Positions 1,892 through 15,853 of a stretch of 15,853 nt of DNA are shown one piece after another. The notes beneath the pieces were generated by a model. The model made no database searches and was not told the DNA's origin. It saw only the letters and a program-made list of their open reading frames with translations. Where the stretch lies: positions 1 through 15,853 of the forward strand of contig JAFTEK010000002.1 of assembly GCA_017453705.1 (NCBI GenBank). Reading direction: 5' to 3'. Every line of letters starts with the position of its first letter. Positions within the stretch are counted from its first letter, which is position 1. The position numbers and the translations under genes are program-made. Source of the stretch: Treponema sp. (lineage in GTDB: Bacteria > Spirochaetota > Spirochaetia > Treponematales > Treponemataceae).

Positions 1892-2363
1892 GTTTTTCCT
1901 CCATGATGTAATGGACAACTTGGGCTTTGCGACGGATTTTGCAGTGAATGGCTGTGGGATAGCCCCTGACTCATTTTATGATTTTTTTATCATTTCAAAG
2001 GTTGCGAGGCAAATCGAAACAAATTCTCCGGTTTTTATATGTGGATGTTCAGGGACAGAGCTTGCACTTACAGTTTTTGAAAGGGTTGGCTTTGACGCTG
2101 TAATCCCGGATATGCCTTTTGGTTTTGAGCGGTTCAATAGAACTCCTGAATACTGGGCTGGTTGGATTACAGCATTTTATCAATGGAAAAGAGGTCTTTC
2201 TTTTTCAAGAATTCGGGACTTTGTTCCTTTTCATGACATAATCAACATGTATTATCCTTTGCATGAAGCCCCAGAGGAAAAATTTTTAGGCGTGATGGAC
2301 GAAATAATTAAGAAGAAAGAGAGGAGTGCTGTATCTTACTCCGCAAGGCGGCGGACTTCGTAG
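1869..2363 (+). CDS. Conserved partner of DUF3990 protein (candidate antitoxin)
   Basis: This 164-residue cytosolic protein has no domain I can name with certainty. It reads like a conserved hypothetical family I recall beside DUF3990 genes: FFLHDVMDNLGFATDFAVNGC near residues 9-29, a SGTELALTVFERVGFD segment near 60-75, PEYWAGWITAFYQWKRGLSF near 101-120, and a closing YPLHEAPEEKFLGVMDEI helix. The ATG at 1869 is preceded by GAGGTG (1859-1864) inside the upstream coding sequence. The overlap and shared AT-rich composition make a two-gene toxin-antitoxin-like module likely, with this as the neutralising partner. The last roughly ten residues (after KKKER) are read from the antisense of the convergent gene at 2336, so the native C-terminus may have been replaced. 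Confidence 0.6.
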   Translation: MGIQGYDKFFLHDVMDNLGFATDFAVNGCGIAPDSFYDFFIISKVARQIETNSPVFICGCSGTELALTVFERVGFDAVIPDMPFGFERFNRTPEYWAGWITAFYQWKRGLSFSRIRDFVPFHDIINMYYPLHEAPEEKFLGVMDEIIKKKERSAVSYSARRRTS

Positions 2364-4603
2364 CCTTTCAGGATGAAACCTGCGGTTTTGCTTTTGCAGA
2401 CTATCTCCACGTTCTTGCTGTAGGCCGGGATGTCCACGGTGAAAGTACATTCCCCCTCTTGCGGGGCGGTAATCTGTTGTTCTTTGTATTCCTTTTTTCC
2501 GCTGTTTGCGGTGACTAGTATATATGCAGGATAGTCTCCGCTGTCATTGCCAATGAACTCATACAATACCTTGATTTCGTAGCTTCCGGGACTGGCACTT
2601 ACATAGGGGCCGTAGGTGAGCAGTTGTTTGCCTGAGCTTATGGGGTAGCCGTCTTCCGTGAGTTTTGTGTCCGTGCCAAGGCATAGCTCTGTCGTTGGGA
2701 TAAAAAGTCCTTTGTCCGATGGCTCTTGCAGGAACAGCCTTGAAATCATGCCTGTCTTGCGGAAGTTGCGGCCTATGTCATAATCATAGATGTATGCGGT
2801 AAGGCCGCCGAGCGGCAGGATTTGTTTTGGGGCGCCGTATTCTTCTTTAAAGCTGTCTTTTTGCACGTAATGCAGCTGGTCATCGGAGAGTAGCAGGAAA
2901 GTAGGCTCGTTGCTTGTGAAGTCAAATACAGTGCTGTCGACGAGGCACAGGTTTGGTTCTATCCTGTCCCTTTCAAAGTAGATAGCCCCAAATCGTATCG
3001 CCAAATCGGAGTAAACTTCATTCTTGTATGCGTTCCAGAATGAAGCATAGCCTTTGTGTGCGCCTGTCGCAAGGAGCTTTGCGCAAAACTCCTTTTGTTC
3101 CAATAGGGCGGGATAATAGCCGGTGGAAAGGTCAATCAGGTACAGGGAGTTTATGCAAACCCCGGATGCGACTATGGCTACAAGGATGTTTCTTATTATG
3201 GATGCCTTGCAGCCTTTAATCCAATGGGCGTAAATGTAGCGGCTTGAGACAATCAGTTCCATATATATGGAGGTGAGTACATACCGGGATTCCGTCTTGC
3301 CCAGGAATACAATGACGAGGAACATGATTGCATTGTGGATGAAGGCAAAAAGGCTGATAAAAATGACGCTCTCGTTTTCCTGCCGTATCCTGCGAATTTG
3401 CAATATGGGTATGACAAAGCATGTCAGGAGCATGAAAAATACGCTGACAAAGTTCCTGAGGCCTTCCGCGCTTGTAAGTTCAGCTCCTGAGCTCATCCCG
3501 AAGTTTATCATCCGGTTGATGAAATACTGCTGAAAATTGCTCCACCAGTTGGCCGTAAAAATCAAGGCGTTGCTGTCCGTGTTGGAGACGTTGTGGGTCG
3601 CGCAGATCCAATGGTAGGCTGCCAGGCCAAGGACTGTCGAGAGCAGTAGTGCGCCCGTGATGAGGCAGCTGTTCTTGCTCCTCTCGGAAGGCTCATTGTG
3701 GAACCCTATGTGCACAAGCTCGCGGACTATCAGGGTCAGGCAGAGGGGCAGGTTGATTTCTGCCAGGCACCTTGAGCCAGCCATGGTAAGAAGGACGATG
3801 AATACGGATAATGTAGATATGGGGGGGGGTATTATGGTTTTGAGATGAGCCTGCCTGTCATAGGCTCGGACAGCCAGCAGCAGGGTCAGGCAAAGCCATG
3901 TGAGCTGTCCGATGTATGCGGCTTCGTACAGGATAAAACCACGTGCGCCTGTGAAAAAGAGCAGGGTGAAAGGAACCATGAGCTTGTATGATGAGTCCTT
4001 GAGCGCCCTGCTGCTGAGCAGGTAAAGCCCGATACATGCTAACGCGACCCATGCGGCGGAATCAAGCGCCCTGAGAAGGCTCTGGTTTTTTATTATCCTA
4101 AGGAAGGGAATCATTAGGAGGTTTCTTTCCAAGAACCATACGTCGCCGTTGGCATAGTACCAGTTGTCCGGGAAAAGGCGCTTGCTTTCCAGCTGGCTTC
4201 TTGCAAGGATAGTCGCGGTAGCCGTGTCAGAGTGTATGACGGCCTGTCCGTGGGTCATAATGGAATAAAAGACCACTGACGCGGAATACAATAGAAGAAA
4301 GTTCAGGACGTTCCTGTATGAGAAGGATTTCCTGTCTAGCAGGAAAGGAATAAGCAGGGTGGAAAAGAAAGCGCACAGGACGGAGTATATGGAAAAGTAT
4401 TCGTAGCAGTAGTATTGCTGCAGGATAACCCAAGCAAGCCATGTAAGAATCAGGGCGGGGATAGCCGTGAGAAGGGTCTTTGCGCAGAATGTCTTGTAGC
4501 TTTTACCGGCCAGATCCTTGCTGAATAAAAAGACGCTGAGCAGGCATGGGACGGTAAAATAGGCAAGACCTAGCATGGGCAATAGCATATCACGGATTGG
4601 CAA
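2336..4603 (-). CDS. Large GT-C-like polytopic membrane protein
   Basis: This protein of 755 residues is mostly hydrophobic, with about 12-13 predicted membrane helices up to residue ~480 and a soluble C-terminal part of ~270 residues. Features typical of GT-C lipid-sugar-dependent glycosyltransferases are an acidic residue after the early helices (HSDTAT, Asp126) and the loop FPDNWYYANGDVW (144-156). The last ~120 residues (GPYVSASPGSYEIKVLYEF onward) look like a beta-sandwich, possibly carbohydrate-binding. I infer a role in surface-glycan assembly; the substrate is unknown. The longest frame starts at TTG (4601-4603), just after an in-frame TAG. An ATG at 4586-4588 gives a protein five residues shorter and is equally plausible, since neither has a clear ribosome site. 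A C9 run encodes Pro259-261 and could switch the gene off. Its 3' end overlaps the converging 1869 gene by 28 bases. Confidence 0.6.
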   Translation of the reverse strand: MPIRDMLLPMLGLAYFTVPCLLSVFLFSKDLAGKSYKTFCAKTLLTAIPALILTWLAWVILQQYYCYEYFSIYSVLCAFFSTLLIPFLLDRKSFSYRNVLNFLLLYSASVVFYSIMTHGQAVIHSDTATATILARSQLESKRLFPDNWYYANGDVWFLERNLLMIPFLRIIKNQSLLRALDSAAWVALACIGLYLLSSRALKDSSYKLMVPFTLLFFTGARGFILYEAAYIGQLTWLCLTLLLAVRAYDRQAHLKTIIPPPISTLSVFIVLLTMAGSRCLAEINLPLCLTLIVRELVHIGFHNEPSERSKNSCLITGALLLSTVLGLAAYHWICATHNVSNTDSNALIFTANWWSNFQQYFINRMINFGMSSGAELTSAEGLRNFVSVFFMLLTCFVIPILQIRRIRQENESVIFISLFAFIHNAIMFLVIVFLGKTESRYVLTSIYMELIVSSRYIYAHWIKGCKASIIRNILVAIVASGVCINSLYLIDLSTGYYPALLEQKEFCAKLLATGAHKGYASFWNAYKNEVYSDLAIRFGAIYFERDRIEPNLCLVDSTVFDFTSNEPTFLLLSDDQLHYVQKDSFKEEYGAPKQILPLGGLTAYIYDYDIGRNFRKTGMISRLFLQEPSDKGLFIPTTELCLGTDTKLTEDGYPISSGKQLLTYGPYVSASPGSYEIKVLYEFIGNDSGDYPAYILVTANSGKKEYKEQQITAPQEGECTFTVDIPAYSKNVEIVCKSKTAGFILKGYEVRRLAE
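3821..3829 (-). repeat. Homopolymeric C9 tract inside a coding sequence
   Basis: Nine G on the plus strand are nine C on the coding strand, read as three proline codons (residues 259-261 of the 2336-4603 protein). Loss of one C would reach a TGA about 30 codons later, and gain of one C a TGA about 43 codons later, both worked out from the sequence. This fits a slipped-strand phase-variation site, though the length could also be a sequencing artefact. Confidence 0.8.
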
Positions 4604-4795: not shown

Positions 4796-4833
4796 GCTGA
4801 GATTGTATTTTTTTATTCCTAATGGAGGAAATT

Positions 4834-5949
4834 ATGAAGAAGTTGATTGCATTTGGACTTGCAGCCCTTATGGTGACAGGTTCACTCTTTGTTTCTTGTA
4901 ACAAGGGTGGTAGCTCTGCTGGCGGAAGCTCCGCTGGTGGTTCATCAGCAAAGGCAACTGCCGTTGGTGTTTCTATGCCTACCAAGGATCTGCAGAGGTG
5001 GAACCAGGACGGAGAGAACATGAAGAAGAAGCTGGAGGAGGCCGGATACAAGGTTGACCTGCAGTATGCCAACAACGACATCGCAACCCAGACCAGCCAG
5101 ATTGAGAACATGATCACCAAGGGTGACAAGGTTCTCGTTATCGCTTCTATCGATGGTTCTGCTCTCAAGAACGTTCTTGACAGCGCAAAGAAGAAGGGAA
5201 TCAAGGTTATCGCTTATGACCGCCTTATCATGAACAGCGATGCTGTTTCTTACTATGCAACTTTCGACAACTACAAGGTCGGAACCATCCAGGGAGACTT
5301 CCTTGTTGACAGGCTCAACCTCAAGAGCCGCTCTGCATCTAACCCTGTTTACATGGAGCTGTTCACCGGTTCACCTGATGACAACAACATCAACTTCTTC
5401 TTTGGCGGTGCTATGGACGTGTTGAAGCCCTACATCGACTCTGGTGTTATCGTTGTTCCCTCTGGACAGACTTCAAAGGCTCAGTGTGCTACTCTCAACT
5501 GGTCTACCGAGGAAGCTCAGAAGAGGATGGAGAACCTGATTACTTCACAGGGATACGGCCCCAAGGGCAAGAAGCTCGACGCTGTTTATTCTTCCAACGA
5601 CTCCTGTGCTATGGGAATCACCAACGCTCTTGAGGGAGCTGGCTACACCGCAGAGAACTTCCCGCTCATCACTGGTCAGGACTGTGACAAGCCGAGCGTC
5701 AAGAACATGCTCAAGGGAACCCAGGCCATGTCCATCTTCAAGGACACCCGTACTCTTGCTGACAAGGTTGTTGGAATGGTTGACGCCATCATGCAGGGCA
5801 AGGAGCCTGAGATTAACGATACCAAGACCTATGACAACGGAACTGGAATCATCCCCTCATACCTCTGTGACCCAGTGTTTGCTACAACCGAGAACTACAA
5901 GTCACTGCTCATCGACTCTGGATACTACAAAGAGAGCGACTTGCAGTAG
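4834..5949 (+). CDS. chvE: ChvE-type monosaccharide-binding lipoprotein of ABC importer
   Basis: Extracytoplasmic solute-binding protein that captures monosaccharides such as xylose, arabinose, glucose or galactose and hands them to the MmsAB membrane complex. The 371 residues begin with a lipoprotein signal (MKKLIAFGLAALMVTGSLFVSC) whose relaxed lipobox points to lipidation of Cys22. A GGSSA-repeat linker follows, then the two-lobed periplasmic fold: VGVSMPTKDLQRWNQDG, VLVIASIDGSALKNVL, KVIAYDRLI, and DAVYSSNDSCAMGITNAL with the hinge-side GQDCD. The start at 4834 is set by GGAGGAA (4824-4830); an ATG at 4822 is in frame but overlaps that site. Lysine is almost always AAG and asparagine AAC, as in highly expressed genes. 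It is the first gene of the chvE-mmsA-mmsB operon. The exact sugar cannot be read from sequence. Confidence 0.9.
   Translation: MKKLIAFGLAALMVTGSLFVSCNKGGSSAGGSSAGGSSAKATAVGVSMPTKDLQRWNQDGENMKKKLEEAGYKVDLQYANNDIATQTSQIENMITKGDKVLVIASIDGSALKNVLDSAKKKGIKVIAYDRLIMNSDAVSYYATFDNYKVGTIQGDFLVDRLNLKSRSASNPVYMELFTGSPDDNNINFFFGGAMDVLKPYIDSGVIVVPSGQTSKAQCATLNWSTEEAQKRMENLITSQGYGPKGKKLDAVYSSNDSCAMGITNALEGAGYTAENFPLITGQDCDKPSVKNMLKGTQAMSIFKDTRTLADKVVGMVDAIMQGKEPEINDTKTYDNGTGIIPSYLCDPVFATTENYKSLLIDSGYYKESDLQ
4906..4950 (+). repeat. GGSSA linker repeat in chvE
   Basis: Three imperfect 15-base units encode GGSSA-GGSSA-GGSSA just after the lipidated cysteine. Third-position differences between the units suggest selection on the protein tether rather than a recent duplication. 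It probably spaces the binding domain from the membrane. Confidence 0.8.
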
Positions 5950-5993
5950 TCACTACTTGAGGCTGCGGGCTTAGCCTGCGGTCTTTCGAATCA

Positions 5994-6030
5994 AGGCAGG
6001 ACGGAAGTGTTTGCGTCCTGCCTTTTTTTT
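5994..6030 (+). terminator. Strong intrinsic terminator between chvE and mmsA
   Basis: A perfect 10-bp stem (AGGCAGGACG at 5994-6003, CGTCCTGCCT at 6014-6023) with a 10-base loop runs into a T8 tract. Because mmsA follows only 35 bases later without an obvious promoter, partial read-through would give excess binding protein over transporter, as is common for importer operons. Confidence 0.9.
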
Positions 6031-6064
6031 AGAAATAAAAATAGAAGAAAGCTTGGAGGTTCCA

Positions 6065-7624
6065 ATGGCAAAGAATTTATTGGAAATGAAACATATCACC
6101 AAGGAATTCCCCGGTGTCAAGGCCCTTAGCGATGTAAGCTTTGAGGTTGAGGAGGGTGAGATTCACGCCCTTTGTGGTGAGAACGGAGCCGGAAAGTCCA
6201 CGTTGATGAACGTCCTTTCAGGCATATACCCTTACGGTACATATTCAGGTGATATTGTTTATAATGGGAACGTCTGTAAGTTCCAGAAAATAAAGGACAG
6301 CGAGAAGGAAGGCATAGTCATCATCCATCAGGAGCTGGCTCTTGTTCCGCTGCTTACAATCGGTGAAAATATGTTCCTCGGCAACGAGCGGGGAACTCCA
6401 AATAGGATAGACTGGGCGCGCACTTTCAGCGAGGCTGATGAGCTTTTGCGCACTGTCGGGCTGAGCGATTCCTCCAGGACTTTGGTAAAGGACATTGGAG
6501 TTGGAAAGCAGCAGCTGGTAGAAATCGCCAAGGCTCTTGGAAAGAACGCCAAGCTGCTCATTCTGGACGAGCCGACGGCTTCTCTCAACGACACTGAAGC
6601 CAAGCACCTGCTTGACCTGCTGCTTGAGTTCAAGAAGAAGGGAATGACGAGCATCATCATCTCCCACAAGCTCAACGAGGTTTCCTATGTCGCGGACAAG
6701 ATTACGGTCATCCGCGACGGTCAGGTCATCAAGACGATGAGCAAGACCGACAGCTCCTTCTCAGAGGACACGATTATCTCCGCTATGGTAGGCCGCAGCC
6801 TTACCGACCGCTTCCCCAAGAGGGAGCCGAAAATCGGTGATATCTCCTTTGAGGTCAAGGACTGGTGTGTGGATCACCCGGTGTTTGACGGCATAAAGGT
6901 TTGCGACCACATCAACTTCAACGTCCGCAAGGGCGAGGTTGTCGGTATTTCCGGCTTGATGGGCGCGGGACGCACGGAGCTTGCGATGAGCATCTTCGGC
7001 CACTCCTATGGCGCGAACATCCGTGGAAAGATTTTCAAGGACGGCAAGGAAGTCCACTTCCCCAATGTCAAGGCTGCCATCGACCACAAGGTTGCATACG
7101 TCACCGAGGACAGGAAGGGCAACGGCCTTATCTTGAGCGAGTCCATCACGCAGAACACCTCCGCGGCATGTCCTGAGAAGATTTCCAAGCACGGAATCGT
7201 GGACTTTGACAAGGAGAGGGATGTTGCCCGCCACTACGTCAAGGAGATGCACACAAAATGTGCTTCTATCGATGATCAGGTTGGAAACCTGTCCGGCGGA
7301 AACATGCAGAAGGTTCTTCTGGGCAAGTGGCTGTTCGCGGATCCGGATGTCCTTATACTGGACGAGCCGACCAGGGGTATTGACGTAGGCGCCAAGTACG
7401 AAATCTACGGAATCATCAACAAGATGGTTTCAGAAGGCAAGTCCGTCATCTTCATCTCGTCGGAGATGCCTGAGATTCTCGGAATGAGTGACAGGATTTA
7501 CGTTATGAACGCCGGACGCATCATAGCCGAGCTTCCCGGAAAAGAGGCGACCCAGGAGAAGATAATGGCCTGCATCATCAACTCCGACAAGGGTGTAAAC
7601 CAGAACGTTGCAGAAAGCAATTAG
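6065..7624 (+). CDS. mmsA: Monosaccharide ABC importer, double ATPase (MmsA/GguA)
   Basis: Cytoplasmic motor of the sugar importer: 519 residues with two fused ABC domains, as in the RbsA/XylG/MglA group. The first domain has Walker [10 protein letters not shown] (38-46) and the Walker B region [13 protein letters not shown]. Its signature loop is the non-classical [13 protein letters not shown]. The second has a degenerate Walker A (GLMGAGRTE), [15 protein letters not shown] as signature and [16 protein letters not shown] as Walker B. One competent and one degenerate ATP site is normal in this group. The ATG at 6065 follows TTGGAGG; the longer frame from 6011 lies in the upstream terminator and is not used. 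mmsB starts 27 bases downstream. Family assignment is secure, and the GguA/MmsA subgroup follows from the ChvE and MmsB neighbours. Confidence 0.92.
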
Positions 7625-7651
7625 CAGCTGCTATAAAAATTGGAGGATACA

Positions 7652-8836
7652 ATGTCAACTTCATTGAATATAAAGAAGACTTTAAAGGACAACACGATTT
7701 TCATCGCGCTTATTGTCGTCATGCTGTTTTTCCAGGCGCTCATCACGGCGACTGACAACGGCTCCCTTTTCTCACCCAGCAACATCAAGAACCTGATTAA
7801 CCAGAACGCTTATGTTGTCGTTCTTGCGACCGGTATGCTTTGCTGTATCTTGACTGGTGGTAACATCGACCTGTCTGTTGGATCTATTGTCTGTCTTGTC
7901 GGTGCCATTGGCGGAACCTTGATAGTGAACTTGCACTGGAACATCTATGTTTCCATCCTCGTCTGCCTTGTCGTGGGTATTCTTATCGGTGCATGGCATG
8001 GAATGTGGATTGCTTATATCCATATACCTCCGTTCATCGTAACCCTTGCAGGAATGTTGCTCTGGCGCGGTGTCGCCCTCATCATCCTGAACGGACTTAC
8101 GATTTCTCCGATGCCCCCCAAGTACCTTAACCTCTTTGCTAGCTACATTCCGTTCAACGCTGACTCGGCTTCTACTATTTACGTGGTGACGATGATTATT
8201 GCCGCGCTTTGCTGTGCTGTCTATGTCATCGCAGAGGTCATATCCAGGAACACCAAGGTCAAGAAGGGCTACGAGGTTCCCAGCATGGCTGGTTTCCTTA
8301 TCAAGGTCATCGTTATCTGTGCCGTCATCATGCTCGTTGCCCACCTGCTCGGACAGGATCAGGGTCTGCCGATAATCCTCGTTATCGTTGGTGTCATAGT
8401 CGCAATCTATGCCTACTACACCAAGAACACGGTTTCCGGCCGCTACCTGTATGCTCTCGGTGGAAACGCAAAGGCCGCCAAGCTCTCCGGTGTCAATACG
8501 GACAAGGTTATGTTCTTTGCCTACACCAACATGGGATTCCTCTCTGCTGTCGCTGCCTTGATGTGTGTCGCGCGCTTTAACTCTGCCGCTCCGACCGCTG
8601 GAACCAACTACGAGATGGACGCAATCTCCTCATGTTTTATCGGAGGAGCCTCCGCTTATGGTGGAACCGGTAAGGTCTCCGGTGCTGTCATCGGTGCTAT
8701 ATTCATGGGCGTTCTTAACAACGGTATGTCCATCCTTGGTATCGATGCCAACTGGCAGAAGGCGGTCAAGGGTCTCGTCCTCCTGCTCGCCGTCCTCTTT
8801 GACGTTGTTTCAAAGAAGCGCAAGGGCGGAAAGTAA
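7652..8836 (+). CDS. mmsB: Monosaccharide ABC importer permease (MmsB/GguB)
   Basis: Inner-membrane channel subunit of the importer. The 394 residues belong to the branched-chain/ribose permease family (BPD_transp_2). Residues 15-35 form the first helix, and LTGGNIDLSVGSIVCLVGAIGG is the conserved second-region motif of RbsC/XylH/GguB permeases. The cytoplasmic coupling segment GRYLYALGGNAKAAKLSGVN contacts the ATPase, and GGASAYGGTGKVSGAVIGA precedes the last helices. The basic tail SKKRKGGK is cytoplasmic. It is longer than RbsC, as usual for the GguB group. The ATG at 7652 follows TGGAGG (7641-7646); a TTG at 7640 overlaps that site and is rejected. It is the last gene of the operon, closed by the terminator at 8880. 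Confidence 0.92.
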   Translation: MSTSLNIKKTLKDNTIFIALIVVMLFFQALITATDNGSLFSPSNIKNLINQNAYVVVLATGMLCCILTGGNIDLSVGSIVCLVGAIGGTLIVNLHWNIYVSILVCLVVGILIGAWHGMWIAYIHIPPFIVTLAGMLLWRGVALIILNGLTISPMPPKYLNLFASYIPFNADSASTIYVVTMIIAALCCAVYVIAEVISRNTKVKKGYEVPSMAGFLIKVIVICAVIMLVAHLLGQDQGLPIILVIVGVIVAIYAYYTKNTVSGRYLYALGGNAKAAKLSGVNTDKVMFFAYTNMGFLSAVAALMCVARFNSAAPTAGTNYEMDAISSCFIGGASAYGGTGKVSGAVIGAIFMGVLNNGMSILGIDANWQKAVKGLVLLLAVLFDVVSKKRKGGK

Positions 8837-8879: not shown

Positions 8880-8925
8880 CCCTTCTGGCGAACATTGTTA
8901 CTTCATGCCAGAAGGGTTTTTTTTT
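8880..8925 (+). terminator. Intrinsic terminator of the sugar-importer operon
   Basis: A perfect 10-bp stem (CCCTTCTGGC at 8880-8889, GCCAGAAGGG at 8907-8916) with a 17-base loop is followed by nine T. It lies 44 bases after the mmsB stop. Transcription from the opposite side would meet the same stem with only a short T run, so its bidirectional strength is doubtful. Confidence 0.9.
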
Positions 8926-11196: not shown

Positions 11197-14139
11197 TTAC
11201 TCATAGATTGTCCTGCACTTGAGGAACTTGATTTCTTTGGGCGCGGGGGCTGGAACTGGCTGGCCGTCACGGAGCAGGGTGATTTCCAGCTTGTCGTGCT
11301 TTTCCAGAAGGTAGCCGCAGCCGACACCCAGGTTCAACAGCAGCCTGCCGTTCCCATAGTTTGCCAGAATGTGGTGCGGGCGGCCGTCCTCACCGTAGAA
11401 AGTGACTTCGACTTTCATGGAGGGGTTGGGCTTTTTCTTCAGGAAAAGGCGGGACAGGAGCGGCGGAAGATCCTTTTTCTGTTCCCCGGCTATGCCAAAT
11501 TCCGTCCATTCATATTTATCATGGAGTCCGTCAAGCTCTATGTATAGGAAGTCCATCTCCTTTCCCGGCACCGGCTCTGATAGCATTATGTCCAGGGGGC
11601 CGTCTTTGCCGCCGATTATACCGAAGGAAAGTTCTTTTTCCGTGAAAATCTTCTTGAGCTTGCCGAACGACAGGCCAAACACATCAGCGGAGTTGCCCAG
11701 CTCGTAATCTTCCTTAAAGAGCGGACTGGACAAGTTGTACCGCCTTAGATCATCTAGGCAGGCTTTTTCCCCGCAGGGAAGGAATATCTCAAAGTCTTTG
11801 TCCCACCTGTATTCTCCTGAGCAGATGAGCCAGTTGTACAGGTAGTAAGTCTCCAAGGGGTCAACGGTGCCTACGCTGGCCCGGTTTGCCAGAAGCATCT
11901 TTCTGGTCTCGCTGGCCGCCCCAAAGCCTTTCATCACACCGCCTTCTATGTTGGCAGCCCCCTTGAGTGAGTATGCGTACCAGTAGCCAAAGCTTTCAAA
12001 CAGGGCGAAAGAGCTGTTGCCCGTCTTTTCGACCGCGGCATATTTCTCATATAAAGCAAGCTTGTCCGAGACGTTTTTTTCTATAAAACACTTTCCTGTT
12101 GTATTCGGCCATCCTGTTGCCTGCGACCACACGTTTTCCACGCGATGGTAGTTTTCCGGGACTTTAATCTGGGAGAACATCTTGCCCCTCGCGTGGTCTA
12201 CCCCGATTCCGCTTGCAGGAACTATGATGATGCCCAGAAGAATCAGGACGATGAGCCTTGCCGTGTTGTCCTTTAGGTATTTATAGGCAAAGACCGCATG
12301 AAGGAATATGACACAGACCAGTGCAGGCCAGCTGCGGACAAATAGGGTGAACAAGTCCAGGCGGATAAAGCTGAATGTGTAGGAGACCGCCGGAATCATG
12401 GCAAGGGAAAGAATCATTGTGAACATCTCGATGTTCTTTCCCATCATGGAAGCCGCCGTATCCCCGCCCTTGTGCAGGAAGGAACAGAGAAAGAGGACTG
12501 GCAGCCAGACCGTCATGGCGAGCGGAACGACTTGCATTATGGTGTAGAGGGGATAGCGGATTGCACTGCCCGCATAAGGCATGAACCAGTCCGGCAGCTG
12601 CTGGCCAAAGAATGAGATTCCGTCCGCCAGCATGGACTGGCCTGCCATCGCCTTTATGTGGAGCAGCGTTCCCCACAGGAGGGGAACCGATGCGAGCAGG
12701 AGCAGTATGACAGGCAGCCAGCCCATCCAGAAGCCTGCCCTGCTGTACGGCTTTTCCGGGTCAGCCGCGATTTTCCTTGCCTGTATGGCGGCCAATGGGA
12801 TGAAACCCGCAAAGCAAGCCACGGCGTAGACCGGATAGTAGAGTCCGTGAAAGACGCTGACGAGCAGGAATACTTTCAGCCAGAGGTTTGGGCGTCTTAT
12901 AAGGGCTGGCAGCAGAAGGAGCAGGACGATGGGTGTCATAAAGGCGACCCTGTTGTAGTCGGGAATCTGGATTAGCAGTGCCAGCGCAAAACAGCCTGTT
13001 TTTCCCAGGTGCAACTTAAGCAGGAAGAGGGTGAGCGCGATGACAGTATAATAGAAGATATTGTTTGCAAGCGCATAATAGGCCATCTGTCCCTTTCCAA
13101 ACAGCTTAAAGAAAGCCCCCTGTACGATGGAATACAGGCCTGCCGGTGGTATGAAATCCCTGAAAGGAATCTGCCCCAGCTCAAAAACCTGCTGGAAAGC
13201 AAAGACATTCTCATAGGGGTGGTGCATGTCGGGGTTGACTACCGCCCCTTCCCCGCAGTAGAAGTTAAAGCACATGATTGCTATGCAGCTTCCCAGGCTT
13301 ATGTAACTGCTTGGATCCAGCTCTTCCGCCTTCCATGTTCCCTTGAGCGTCCTTGCCGCGTCTGCCAGTGACAGAAAGACTGCCAGAACCATAAAGAGCC
13401 TGGCCTCTGGGGTAATCCAAATCCATTCCTTTTGACCGAGGTAAGAGTAGTTTTGTATGCTGAGTATGTTGTATAGGAAGGGGAGAGCCAGCTGCATGAC
13501 TAGTGCCGCCCTCTTCTGAATAAGCCGCCTGTTTTTAAATGGCATGGACAGGGCGGTGCAGCAGATTGCAAAGACCAGTGCGTGGGAACTGGGAACACTC
13601 CAGTCCATGTCGTTGTGCGCCACCGGGTTAAAGCTGTCCATACAGCGCAAAAGATGATAATAGGCAAAGAACGTGTAGTAACTGATAAAGAATAGGCAGA
13701 ATGTGGAGCCTACCGCCTTTTTGTCCAGGACGTAGGCCAGGGCCATGAAAAAGACAGCCGCCAGCATCAGTTTGGAAAAGCTCTGCATAAAGAGCATCTT
13801 TAGGACAAAGAGCGAAATCGTACAGGCCAAAAGCAACATTGATTCCCCTGCTGTCTTGGCTGCCTTGCCGCTGTCATCTATGCCCCCGGCTTTCCTGCCT
13901 TTAAGCAATAGGCGGCAGACTATGGCGGCGGAGCCTAGCAGGATAAGCATCCTGAGCAGCAGGATTTCCGTTCCCTTGTTGCTCCTGACCCAGGTTGTCC
14001 ACTCCACAACTATGTCGTTGTAGGCCTGGGGCGAGTTGCCTGTCAGTGCCATCCACAGGATGCTGAAAATTCCCCCCATGGCGAATATGAGGGCAAGAAA
14101 AAGCAGGTCGCCTTTTGTCAGTTCTATCTTCCTGTCCAA
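11197..14139 (-). CDS. Very large GT-C-like membrane glycosyltransferase candidate
   Basis: A 980-residue protein with about 16-18 membrane helices to residue ~645 and a soluble, probably periplasmic, C-terminal third (650-980). The N-terminal ~290 residues form a helix bundle of their own. The second part carries an acidic loop NPDMHHPYENVF (302-313) followed by GQIPFRDFIPPAGLYS, resembling the first catalytic loop of GT-C (family 39/PMT-like) enzymes that use polyprenyl-linked sugars. I infer transfer of a sugar or modifying group to surface glycan. The start is TTG (14137-14139), preceded by GGAGGG with 6-base spacing and separated by one base from the upstream stop. A longer frame from an ATG at 14185-14187 overlaps the upstream gene by 47 bases and is less likely. 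It is the last gene of the operon, and the 22-bp array follows its stop. Confidence 0.6.
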   Translation of the reverse strand: MDRKIELTKGDLLFLALIFAMGGIFSILWMALTGNSPQAYNDIVVEWTTWVRSNKGTEILLLRMLILLGSAAIVCRLLLKGRKAGGIDDSGKAAKTAGESMLLLACTISLFVLKMLFMQSFSKLMLAAVFFMALAYVLDKKAVGSTFCLFFISYYTFFAYYHLLRCMDSFNPVAHNDMDWSVPSSHALVFAICCTALSMPFKNRRLIQKRAALVMQLALPFLYNILSIQNYSYLGQKEWIWITPEARLFMVLAVFLSLADAARTLKGTWKAEELDPSSYISLGSCIAIMCFNFYCGEGAVVNPDMHHPYENVFAFQQVFELGQIPFRDFIPPAGLYSIVQGAFFKLFGKGQMAYYALANNIFYYTVIALTLFLLKLHLGKTGCFALALLIQIPDYNRVAFMTPIVLLLLLPALIRRPNLWLKVFLLVSVFHGLYYPVYAVACFAGFIPLAAIQARKIAADPEKPYSRAGFWMGWLPVILLLLASVPLLWGTLLHIKAMAGQSMLADGISFFGQQLPDWFMPYAGSAIRYPLYTIMQVVPLAMTVWLPVLFLCSFLHKGGDTAASMMGKNIEMFTMILSLAMIPAVSYTFSFIRLDLFTLFVRSWPALVCVIFLHAVFAYKYLKDNTARLIVLILLGIIIVPASGIGVDHARGKMFSQIKVPENYHRVENVWSQATGWPNTTGKCFIEKNVSDKLALYEKYAAVEKTGNSSFALFESFGYWYAYSLKGAANIEGGVMKGFGAASETRKMLLANRASVGTVDPLETYYLYNWLICSGEYRWDKDFEIFLPCGEKACLDDLRRYNLSSPLFKEDYELGNSADVFGLSFGKLKKIFTEKELSFGIIGGKDGPLDIMLSEPVPGKEMDFLYIELDGLHDKYEWTEFGIAGEQKKDLPPLLSRLFLKKKPNPSMKVEVTFYGEDGRPHHILANYGNGRLLLNLGVGCGYLLEKHDKLEITLLRDGQPVPAPAPKEIKFLKCRTIYE

Positions 14140-14140
14140 G

Positions 14141-14872
14141 TCATCCCTCCAGGAAGGCTTTAAGCTCCTCCGGTGTGCCAAGGACATGCACCTTGTCGCT
14201 GGGGATGTCCACTATGCGTATATCCCCGCCCTTTTCCAGGAGATAGTTGTACAGGGGGGCGACATATTTCTCTCCGTTTACCAGGCTCCCCTCTTTTGAG
14301 TAGTATTCATTGTAAAGGGATTCGTAGAGGGCGCAGCTTTTAAAGTAGTAGGCTCCCAATGTACAGTTGTCCGAAATCCTGACCTTCTCCTTTATTTCCA
14401 CGGCTTTTCCGTTTTTGTCCAGGCGGACAAAGCTCCAGTGGTCTCCTTGCGCCTTGAAGCAGGGGATAAAGCCGTCCCCTTTTATCTGCTCACAATTCAT
14501 CGCCCCGCTTTCCACGTAAGTGTCTATGTTGTATATCAGAAGGGGGGAGTCCTTGTCCCAGAACCTGCTGGCGAGCATGGCTGTTGTGGCCTGTCCGTCT
14601 GTCAGGTAGTCCAGCATTATCACGTGGAAATCGCTTATCCCAAGTTCTGCGCATTTCTCCCTGATAAAGGCCTCCGCATCTGCCTTCTCGTCTTTCATCG
14701 CAATGAACACGTACTGTCCCGCCTGGGACTTGAAGCCGTCCAGGCTGACCATTGACCACTCAAAGAGAGTCCGCCCCTTGGCGGAAATCATGTACTTAGG
14801 CACGTCGTATCCTGCCTTGCGGAAGCGGGAACCCAGGCCTCCCATTGTAATCACGATGTTAAGCTTGTCCAT
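14141..14872 (-). CDS. Nucleotidyltransferase for an activated sugar/small molecule
   Basis: A 243-residue soluble enzyme of the NTP-transferase (GT-A-like) fold, expected to join a phosphorylated substrate to a nucleotide with release of pyrophosphate. The nucleotide loop is ITMGGLGSRFRKAGYDVPKY, with the G-G-x-G-S-R signature at 11-16 and the conserved Lys at 26. LTDGQATTAMLA (90-101) and LLIYNIDTYV (111-120, metal-binding Asp117) follow, then a second-half strand set with HWSFVRLDKNGKAVEIKEK. The ATG at 14872 has GGAGG six bases upstream and overlaps the HAD gene by 14 bases. An upstream in-frame start at 15001 would add 43 residues of antisense-like sequence and is rejected. Neighbouring kinase and HAD genes suggest one pathway. 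Nucleotide and substrate cannot be told from sequence. Confidence 0.78.
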   Translation of the reverse strand: MDKLNIVITMGGLGSRFRKAGYDVPKYMISAKGRTLFEWSMVSLDGFKSQAGQYVFIAMKDEKADAEAFIREKCAELGISDFHVIMLDYLTDGQATTAMLASRFWDKDSPLLIYNIDTYVESGAMNCEQIKGDGFIPCFKAQGDHWSFVRLDKNGKAVEIKEKVRISDNCTLGAYYFKSCALYESLYNEYYSKEGSLVNGEKYVAPLYNYLLEKGGDIRIVDIPSDKVHVLGTPEELKAFLEG

Positions 14873-15290
14873 TTGAGCCTCCGCACTGGGACTGCTTGCA
14901 TATCCTGTCAAGCTCCTCCACGGACTTGGACAGGAACTCATCGGGGCGTACCGTGCGGTCGTCCACATAAAAGCCCTTGTGCCCCGGCCAGGGCTTGCCA
15001 TAGATTATCTCGTCGTAGGGAATTTCCCACTTGTCCAGCCAGTCCTGCAGTATGCGGGCGGTGTTCTTGTTTATGAGGCCTATGTTGCCGTTATATGAGT
15101 TCATGTTGCGGCTGGTAAAGAGGACTATCTTTGCCCCAAGCTCCTTGTACTGGCGCAGCTTTTCCACCATTTCCTTGTAGGGAACAAGGTCTTCGTACTT
15201 TTCTTCCTTTTTCTTTATGGGGCAGAGCGTCCCGTCTATGTCAAATACGAAAGAATATGCGGAATAGTCCGCCTTGTCATCTGATTTCAT
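14859..15290 (-). CDS. HAD-family phosphatase of capsule/surface-glycan type
   Basis: A small 143-residue HAD hydrolase with no cap domain. Motif I FDIDGTLC supplies the nucleophile Asp17 and acid/base Asp19; motif II is FTSRN (Thr59 or Ser60); motif III/IV is YGKPWPGHKGFYVDDRTVRPDEF with Lys99 and Asp110-Asp111. The combination matches the short phosphatases found in capsule clusters (BcbF-like annotations, recalled from family knowledge). Expected role is removing a phosphate from a bisphosphorylated intermediate before nucleotidyl transfer. The ATG at 15290 overlaps the upstream kinase gene by 14 bases, and its 3' end overlaps the nucleotidyltransferase by 14 bases, so all are translationally coupled. 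Fold and catalytic residues are seen directly, but the substrate is unknown. Confidence 0.82.
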   Translation of the reverse strand: MKSDDKADYSAYSFVFDIDGTLCPIKKKEEKYEDLVPYKEMVEKLRQYKELGAKIVLFTSRNMNSYNGNIGLINKNTARILQDWLDKWEIPYDEIIYGKPWPGHKGFYVDDRTVRPDEFLSKSVEELDRICKQSQCGGSNGQA

Positions 15291-15853
15291 GCTCTATTTC
15301 CTCCAGAATGTCTATGGCGTTCAGTATAAAGGCAAAGACCTTGTGCGGGTTGTCTATGTGCAGGGGCAGCATGGATATGAACAGCGATGCCTCGTAAGTC
15401 CTGACGGACAGGTAGTCAAAGCCGTTGTCCTTTAGTTTCCTGCGGAACAGGTCTTTGTATGCCGTGTTGTCAAAGTCAATCTTAAGCTCCGCCCTAAAGT
15501 CCTCGCTTATGCAGATGTCAAAGAGGGCGTTGTTAAAGAAGTCGTACAGGCCGCACAGGGAGTGGCTCAGCTTGGCGACATCATAATAGGGGTTTGTCCA
15601 CAGCTCCTCCTCGCTCAGCGCACCCTTGGGGTCTATGAACTTGAGCAGGCCGGTGGACTTGTTGTACATCGCGTTGGCAAAGCATGGGTCTCCGTGGCCT
15701 ATCACCGAGATATTGGGATAGCGGGCGCGGGACTCAACCTTGTCTTTTACGGCCAGATATTTCTCAAGCAGGCTGTCAATGTCACTTACGGGGCATGAGG
15801 CTTTCATCAGGCTGTCTATTTTTGCAAAAGCGGGCAGGCCTTTCAGTTCCTCA
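15277..15853 (-). CDS. APH/choline-kinase-like kinase (5' end beyond window)
   Basis: The frame is open to the window edge; 191 residues of the C-terminal lobe are seen. GHGDPCFANAMYN is the HGDxxxxN catalytic loop of the aminoglycoside phosphotransferase/choline kinase fold, and FIDPKGA carries the Mg-binding Asp. The ATG at 15805-15807 is internal, because coding continues upstream as EELKGLPAFAKIDSL. In this context the enzyme probably phosphorylates a small precursor such as a sugar or amino alcohol rather than an antibiotic. It is the first visible gene of the kinase-HAD-nucleotidyltransferase-GT-C operon, and overlaps the HAD gene by 14 bases. It could equally be called a capsule-associated phosphotransferase. 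Its full length is not visible. Confidence 0.75.
   Translation of the reverse strand, partial: EELKGLPAFAKIDSLMKASCPVSDIDSLLEKYLAVKDKVESRARYPNISVIGHGDPCFANAMYNKSTGLLKFIDPKGALSEEELWTNPYYDVAKLSHSLCGLYDFFNNALFDICISEDFRAELKIDFDNTAYKDLFRRKLKDNGFDYLSVRTYEASLFISMLPLHIDNPHKVFAFILNAIDILEEIEHEIR

Follow-up and report, generated by a model that had tools for sequence, protein, structure and literature searches.

Does a run of nine cytosines in the middle of a treponemal membrane-protein gene serve as a site of slipped-strand phase variation, or is it a homopolymer that three adjacent proline codons have formed by chance? The question concerns the window, i.e. the whole stretch of 15,853 nucleotides that was analysed, which is contig C78 of genome G000 (2.28 Mb in 393 contigs, 72% complete). 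The host organism, to judge from its relatives, is probably an uncultured, gut-associated treponeme.

The answer that we favour, with moderate confidence, is that the C9 tract is a slipped-strand contingency site giving translational phase variation. For this particular tract the reading draws on the other coding tracts of the genome and its clade; in those tracts length differences as well as in-frame and out-of-frame states were observed, and we infer that the C9 tract itself also varies in length.

The tract and the gene that carries it

The C9 homopolymer, our candidate slippage tract, occupies positions 3821..3829 of the minus strand (G9 on the plus strand). It lies in a minus-strand ORF at 2336..4603 that encodes a multi-pass membrane protein of 755 aa, possibly a glycosyltransferase of the GT-C type; the start codon of this ORF is TTG, and its codon 6 is an in-frame ATG. 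The tract fills codons 259-261 (CCC CCC CCC, Pro-Pro-Pro), exactly where the first-pass annotation had put it. It is also, as had been claimed, the longest G/C run of the window, in which the next G/C runs are 6 long; a T9 run is present as well, at 8917-8925.

With the tract one base shorter, the reading frame meets a TGA at 3736..3738 of the minus strand (codon 289, 27 codons past the tract), and with the tract one base longer it meets a TGA at 3693..3695 of the same strand (codon 304, 42 codons past the tract); the distances given earlier, about 30 and about 43 codons, are true if counted from the start of the tract. A loss of two units leads to a stop at codon 303 and a gain of two to a stop at codon 290. 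The full-length protein, as computed, is lost on a one-unit change in either direction, which speaks for a contingency site.

The proposed mechanism is as follows. In replication the C9 tract would gain or lose C at a raised rate, a length of nine being presumably enough for slippage by analogy with T. pallidum tracts at least 8 long that are described in part of PMC7864442. Only frame-keeping tract lengths would yield the 755-aa membrane protein; at other lengths translation would stop 27-42 codons past the tract, and the resulting protein of ~290-304 residues would be devoid of the entire C-terminal domain and of half of the membrane segments. Cells with and without a probable surface-glycan enzyme would then coexist in a population.

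Roughly the first 490 residues of the 755-aa protein contain ~12 hydrophobic segments, and the ~265 that follow contain none; at residues 124-126 the protein carries an HSD that is a candidate for the acidic loop motif of GT-C enzymes. We found no match to it in Pfam or among PDB sequences and no informative match in NCBIfam, where a single irrelevant one appeared at E 0.1. Topology and context are therefore what remains of its earlier description as GT-C-like; the sequence searches of Pfam, NCBIfam and PDB gave no match to a GT-C family. We consider that the protein probably acts on surface glycan. The context is a probable surface-glycan cluster at 11197..15852, also on the minus strand, which comprises a 996-aa membrane protein, a sugar nucleotidyltransferase-like protein, an EcbF/BcbF-like capsule phosphatase and a partial ORF that by eye is kinase-like; the capsule-phosphatase-like gene matched TIGR01689 with E 3.5e-40 and 136.8 bits, under the model cut-off of 162. 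An ABC transporter (4822-8836) and two further genes separate the tract gene from this cluster.

No ortholog of the tract gene was found in 200 genomes of the genus, 274 genomes of the family or a broader contig collection, and the weak short matches seen in genus genomes were all above E 0.001. Outside its own genome the only significant match was a protein of genome G119, at E 1.7e-6; the alignment spans residues 317-617 with 22% identity and contains one in-frame TGA. Within its own genome, contig C176 carries what is left of another copy of the gene, 22 codons from its 3′ end (L030:5201-5266), adjoining glycosyltransferase and methyltransferase genes. The same contig shares a repeat with the window, positions 1-234 of the latter being 97% identical to C176:666-899, inside a repeated 284-aa gene.

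Number, flanks and gene classes of long C/G runs

The chance explanation holds that three adjacent CCC prolines stand in a tolerant loop with no selected switching, the tract slipping faster than average just as any C9 would. The location of Pro-Pro-Pro, where a charged loop gives way to a hydrophobic segment, agrees with it, and so does codon usage. In a set of 131 genes, which included tract-selected loci and the window gene, CCC was the commonest proline codon (34%), and one of the eight Pro-Pro-Pro triplets was all CCC; the triplet of the window is therefore no strong codon anomaly.

More can be learned from the number of such runs. We counted 77 C/G runs of exactly 7 bases in the genome and 19 of 8 bases; a further 22 are at least nine long (17 of nine, 4 of ten and 1 of eleven). 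Shuffling of synonymous codons in 76 genes on 20 contigs not picked for tracts, scaled to the genome, gave expectations of 88.7, 24.6 and 11.6 for runs of 7, of 8 and of at least nine, respectively; a first-order Markov model gave 211, 57 and 20.9. The 22 long runs exceed the shuffle expectation (Poisson P 0.004) and the 6.2 runs extrapolated from the runs of 7 and 8 (P 7e-7), and both excesses are in favour of contingency. Short runs are thus at or under expectation, and runs of at least nine make up about twice the codon-matched number, not exceeding the Markov number. An earlier shuffle background, with 35.6 runs expected, was discarded as biased because its loci had been picked for tracts.

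The nearness of the long runs to the Markov expectation, and the fact that codon shuffling alone produces a considerable number of them, are points for the chance explanation. Against it, the Markov model predicts 2.7-3 times more runs of 7 and 8 than there are, and runs of at least nine show no such deficit. These figures leave room for chance to account for a third to half, or more, of the runs of at least nine: about half by the shuffle, and every one by the Markov model. Taken alone, the window tract stands out from chance only weakly. Among 96 genomes of the genus, individual genomes had from 0 to 57 exact C9/G9 runs.

The flanks of the runs also differ with length. On the C strand an A precedes 10 of the 22 runs of at least nine, 6 of the 19 runs of 8 and 7 of the 77 runs of 7 (Fisher P 3e-4 for runs of 7 versus at least nine; P 0.002 with runs of 7 and 8 pooled), and the window tract is of the A-before class. 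This difference from the runs of 7 counts against chance; the frequency of the flank in runs of 8 weighs against a contingency role. In the wider flanks the window tract has the plus-strand signature AT-G9-TA(TTAT) at 3819..3835, which is common to other long tracts of the genus and includes TATTAT, a -10-like hexamer on that strand. Exact AT-G9-TA sites in the genome are three: the window tract, L018 (a lipoprotein) and L023 (a YidC-sulfatase membrane protein). Their occurrence in 3 of 17 exact-9 runs has P ~1e-4 from base composition, for a pattern noticed post hoc; as AT-G9-TA is the same read backwards, a reversed control is uninformative. In 16 of the 22 tracts it is the G strand that encodes the longest frame through the run; at the window tract it is the C strand, another observation that tells against the contingency reading.

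Ten of the 22 tracts were located inside or just before genes for surface glycan or surface proteins (classes of our own, assigned with Pfam and by eye), which is in favour of contingency. Besides the window gene these are a nucleotidyltransferase-HAD fusion (L012), a DUF6311 membrane protein (L015), two YidC-sulfatase membrane proteins (L017 and L023), a probable glycosyltransferase recognized by eye only (L021) and four lipoproteins (L013, L018, L026 and L029). Long runs were found in or next to housekeeping genes too, namely those for ribulose-phosphate 3-epimerase, CheR, ATP:guanido kinase, dihydropteroate synthase, ApbE, a thiamine-pyrophosphate enzyme and an ECF-transporter-like protein (under its cut-off), as the chance explanation would have it and contrary to the contingency reading; the remainder were unclassified. 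With these by-eye classes, the enrichment in surface genes for runs of at least nine over runs of 8 (10/22 versus 4/19) was not significant (P 0.19), and we dropped it as a proof of switching. One of the four surface-class runs of 8 (L279) belongs to the lipoprotein family of L018. All in all, we regard chance as a possible but rather doubtful origin of the window tract.

Frame states of coding tracts in the clade

Slippage at coding tracts, our preferred reading for the window tract, can be assessed in gene families with several copies. With the L018 lipoprotein as a query, 7 of 196 genomes of the genus proved to have relatives of it, the window genome among them; the best candidates of each genome, nine at most, were scored, so that the copy numbers are lower bounds. 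In all 25 copies that had a legible N-terminus and no tract (no G run of 7 or longer in the searched interval) the signal peptide was in frame with the body of the protein (24 judged by eye, plus L327), and the two copies with G7 were both in frame. In contrast to the tract-less copies, 9 of the 11 copies with a coding tract of G8-G12 after the lipobox were out of frame, as expected of contingency loci: L029 (G11), L279 (G8), L305 (G12), L306 (G8), L310 (G10), L312 (G10), L314 (G8), L321 (G9) and L336 (G8). The two in frame were L026 (G10) and L018/L293 (G9). The bodies of the out-of-frame copies are still open for at least 141 codons. The association of frame with tract has Fisher P 8e-7 (with 24 tract-less copies), or 2e-6 leaving out L029, values that overstate independence as the copies are mutually related. 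Left out of the counts were copies cut by contig ends (L300, L324 and L328), a second partial copy at L029, and L311 and L329, where the run is before or within the signal-peptide region. In one of the copies left out, L328 (G054:C91), a G19 run stands at the contig end inside the lipoprotein gene; perhaps tract heterogeneity broke the assembly there.

Assembly is itself a conceivable source of the window tract, through a wrong tract length or a wrong join at the homopolymer. The genome is fragmented, and its L029 tract sits where two lipoprotein paralogs diverge, so that L029 may be a chimera. At the window tract, however, the frame runs unbroken into the tract and out of it, the translation looks like a single multi-pass membrane protein, and many other genomes have tracts of this kind; we consider an artefact very improbable.

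The contingency reading gains from a second lipoprotein, with a tract in the signal peptide, for which tract length and frame differ between species: G9 is in frame in G144 and G173, and G10 is out of frame in G035. With these length differences between orthologs and the states of the L018 family, the frame on-off mechanism of the first-pass annotation finds support for this genome and its closest relatives. If the tracts do switch, 'frameshifted' lipoproteins in metagenome-assembled genomes would be off states and not pseudogenes.

The YidC-sulfatase proteins, which had matches in 139 of 196 genus genomes, show a varied picture. L023 and its relative in G069, 63% identical overall, have G9 at the same aligned place; the G9 of L017 is elsewhere and adds one residue. 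For one relative in G177 a G9 inside the ORF was considered and rejected, as the tract is 5′ of the ORF; a further G177 homolog, cut by a contig end, has no G/C run of 7 or longer. In 27 other retrieved members (36-40% identity) no run of 8 or longer was seen inside the gene, and one G8 was outside the match. A YidC-like domain is fused to a sulfatase-type domain in L023, L017, L260 and L261, and the closest members differ in where the G9 tract stands, which can also be 5′ of the gene.

Poly-G spacer promoters and known switching systems

Long G tracts also occur in the genus between promoter elements. We observed the pattern TTGACA-N5-12-G9-TA at 190 sites in 77 of 196 genus genomes, and the reversed pattern at 1 site; in promoters, the TA after the G run is the beginning of the -10 hexamer. 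At least three of the sites (in G144:C29, G173:C47 and G035:C106) are the signal-peptide coding tract of the second lipoprotein and not a promoter. The 30 retrieved loci (L082-L111) contain 31 sites, with a downstream ORF for 28; by eye, 26 of these 28 have a signal peptide or lipobox, the exceptions being L087 and L103, and the start of L106 is uncertain, so that its tract may be coding. Spacers at the retrieved promoter-like sites were 14-19 nt long. Two of the promoters, with surroundings 95% and 87.5% identical, differ between species in tract length (G9/G10 and G12/G10).

It seems reasonably probable that the genus, apparently one of animal guts, has a large switching repertoire of two modes: poly-G spacer promoters on many lipoproteins, to which the clade of the window genome adds G/C tracts within the coding regions of lipoprotein, sulfatase-type and glycan genes, the window gene being one of the switches. 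Were this so, the surface would be a mosaic whose composition depends mostly on the lengths of the tracts.

Might the window tract itself belong to the promoter type? AT-G9-TATTAT on the plus strand would then start antisense transcription of the gene, either replacing frame switching or adding to it. The AT-G9-TA context is the same as in many promoter tracts of the genus, and in the G119 homolog G9-TATTAT stands where a promoter would. Yet TTGACA at the searched spacing is absent (0 sites in the window genome), and within ~990 nt downstream of the signature no plus-strand ORF of at least 100 aa starts; such a function is highly unlikely. In G119 itself AT-G9-TATTAT is ~40 nt upstream of the gene start, which has a good ribosome site, an arrangement in line with contingency; no clear -35 was seen for this tract. 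From its layout, the distant G119 relative may be switched in the other, promoter mode.

In Neisseria, Campylobacter and Helicobacter, poly-C and poly-G tracts are present inside surface-glycan genes, with frameshift as the off state. The window gene, if it is a contingency locus, resembles these genes in its in-gene homopolymer with frameshift as the off switch, as described in part of PMC5084427; unlike it they belong to another phylum, and the likeness is one of tract layout as read from the sequence. A further parallel is porA of Neisseria meningitidis, in which the poly-G promoter spacer is changed by the count of G (described in a section of PMC7864442), similarly to the genus-wide TTGACA-N-G9-TA promoters; this likeness concerns the lipoproteins of relatives, the window tract being coding instead.

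Closer systematically is T. pallidum. The portion of PMC7864442 on its poly-G tracts reports them in promoters, some between -35 and -10, and, for 17 further tracts at least 8 long, gives 76% as length-variable, some inside ORFs; the precedent that had been cited for the window tract agrees with this account. The excerpted text of a review also counts T. pallidum with the species whose repeat-mediated repertoires are large (PMC11868660). The tracts of tprE/G/J, tp0126 and tprL are like the window tract in being Treponemataceae G tracts of ~8 or more. But the T. pallidum tracts studied in detail, as far as the portion of PMC7864442 on them goes, are those of outer-membrane-protein promoters in a host-restricted pathogen, and the window tract, known from sequence alone, is deep in the coding region of a lineage-specific membrane protein.

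Slippage contingency in treponemes is already known from the syphilis spirochaete, and the window tract is likely to be a further instance. In open-licence papers we found no literature on slippage switching in rumen or gut treponemes. If the tracts switch, surface antigens and glycans of a gut spirochaete would vary within a clone, which bears on phage resistance and colonisation.

A poly-G spacer pattern similar to that of the genus promoters was also seen elsewhere. Among the matches listed (at least L112-L227) it occurred in Saccharibacteria, Clostridia, Bacilli, Rikenellaceae, Planctomycetia and others, many of them from animal guts; as it appears in so many other phyla among these matches, the pattern is not special to Treponema.
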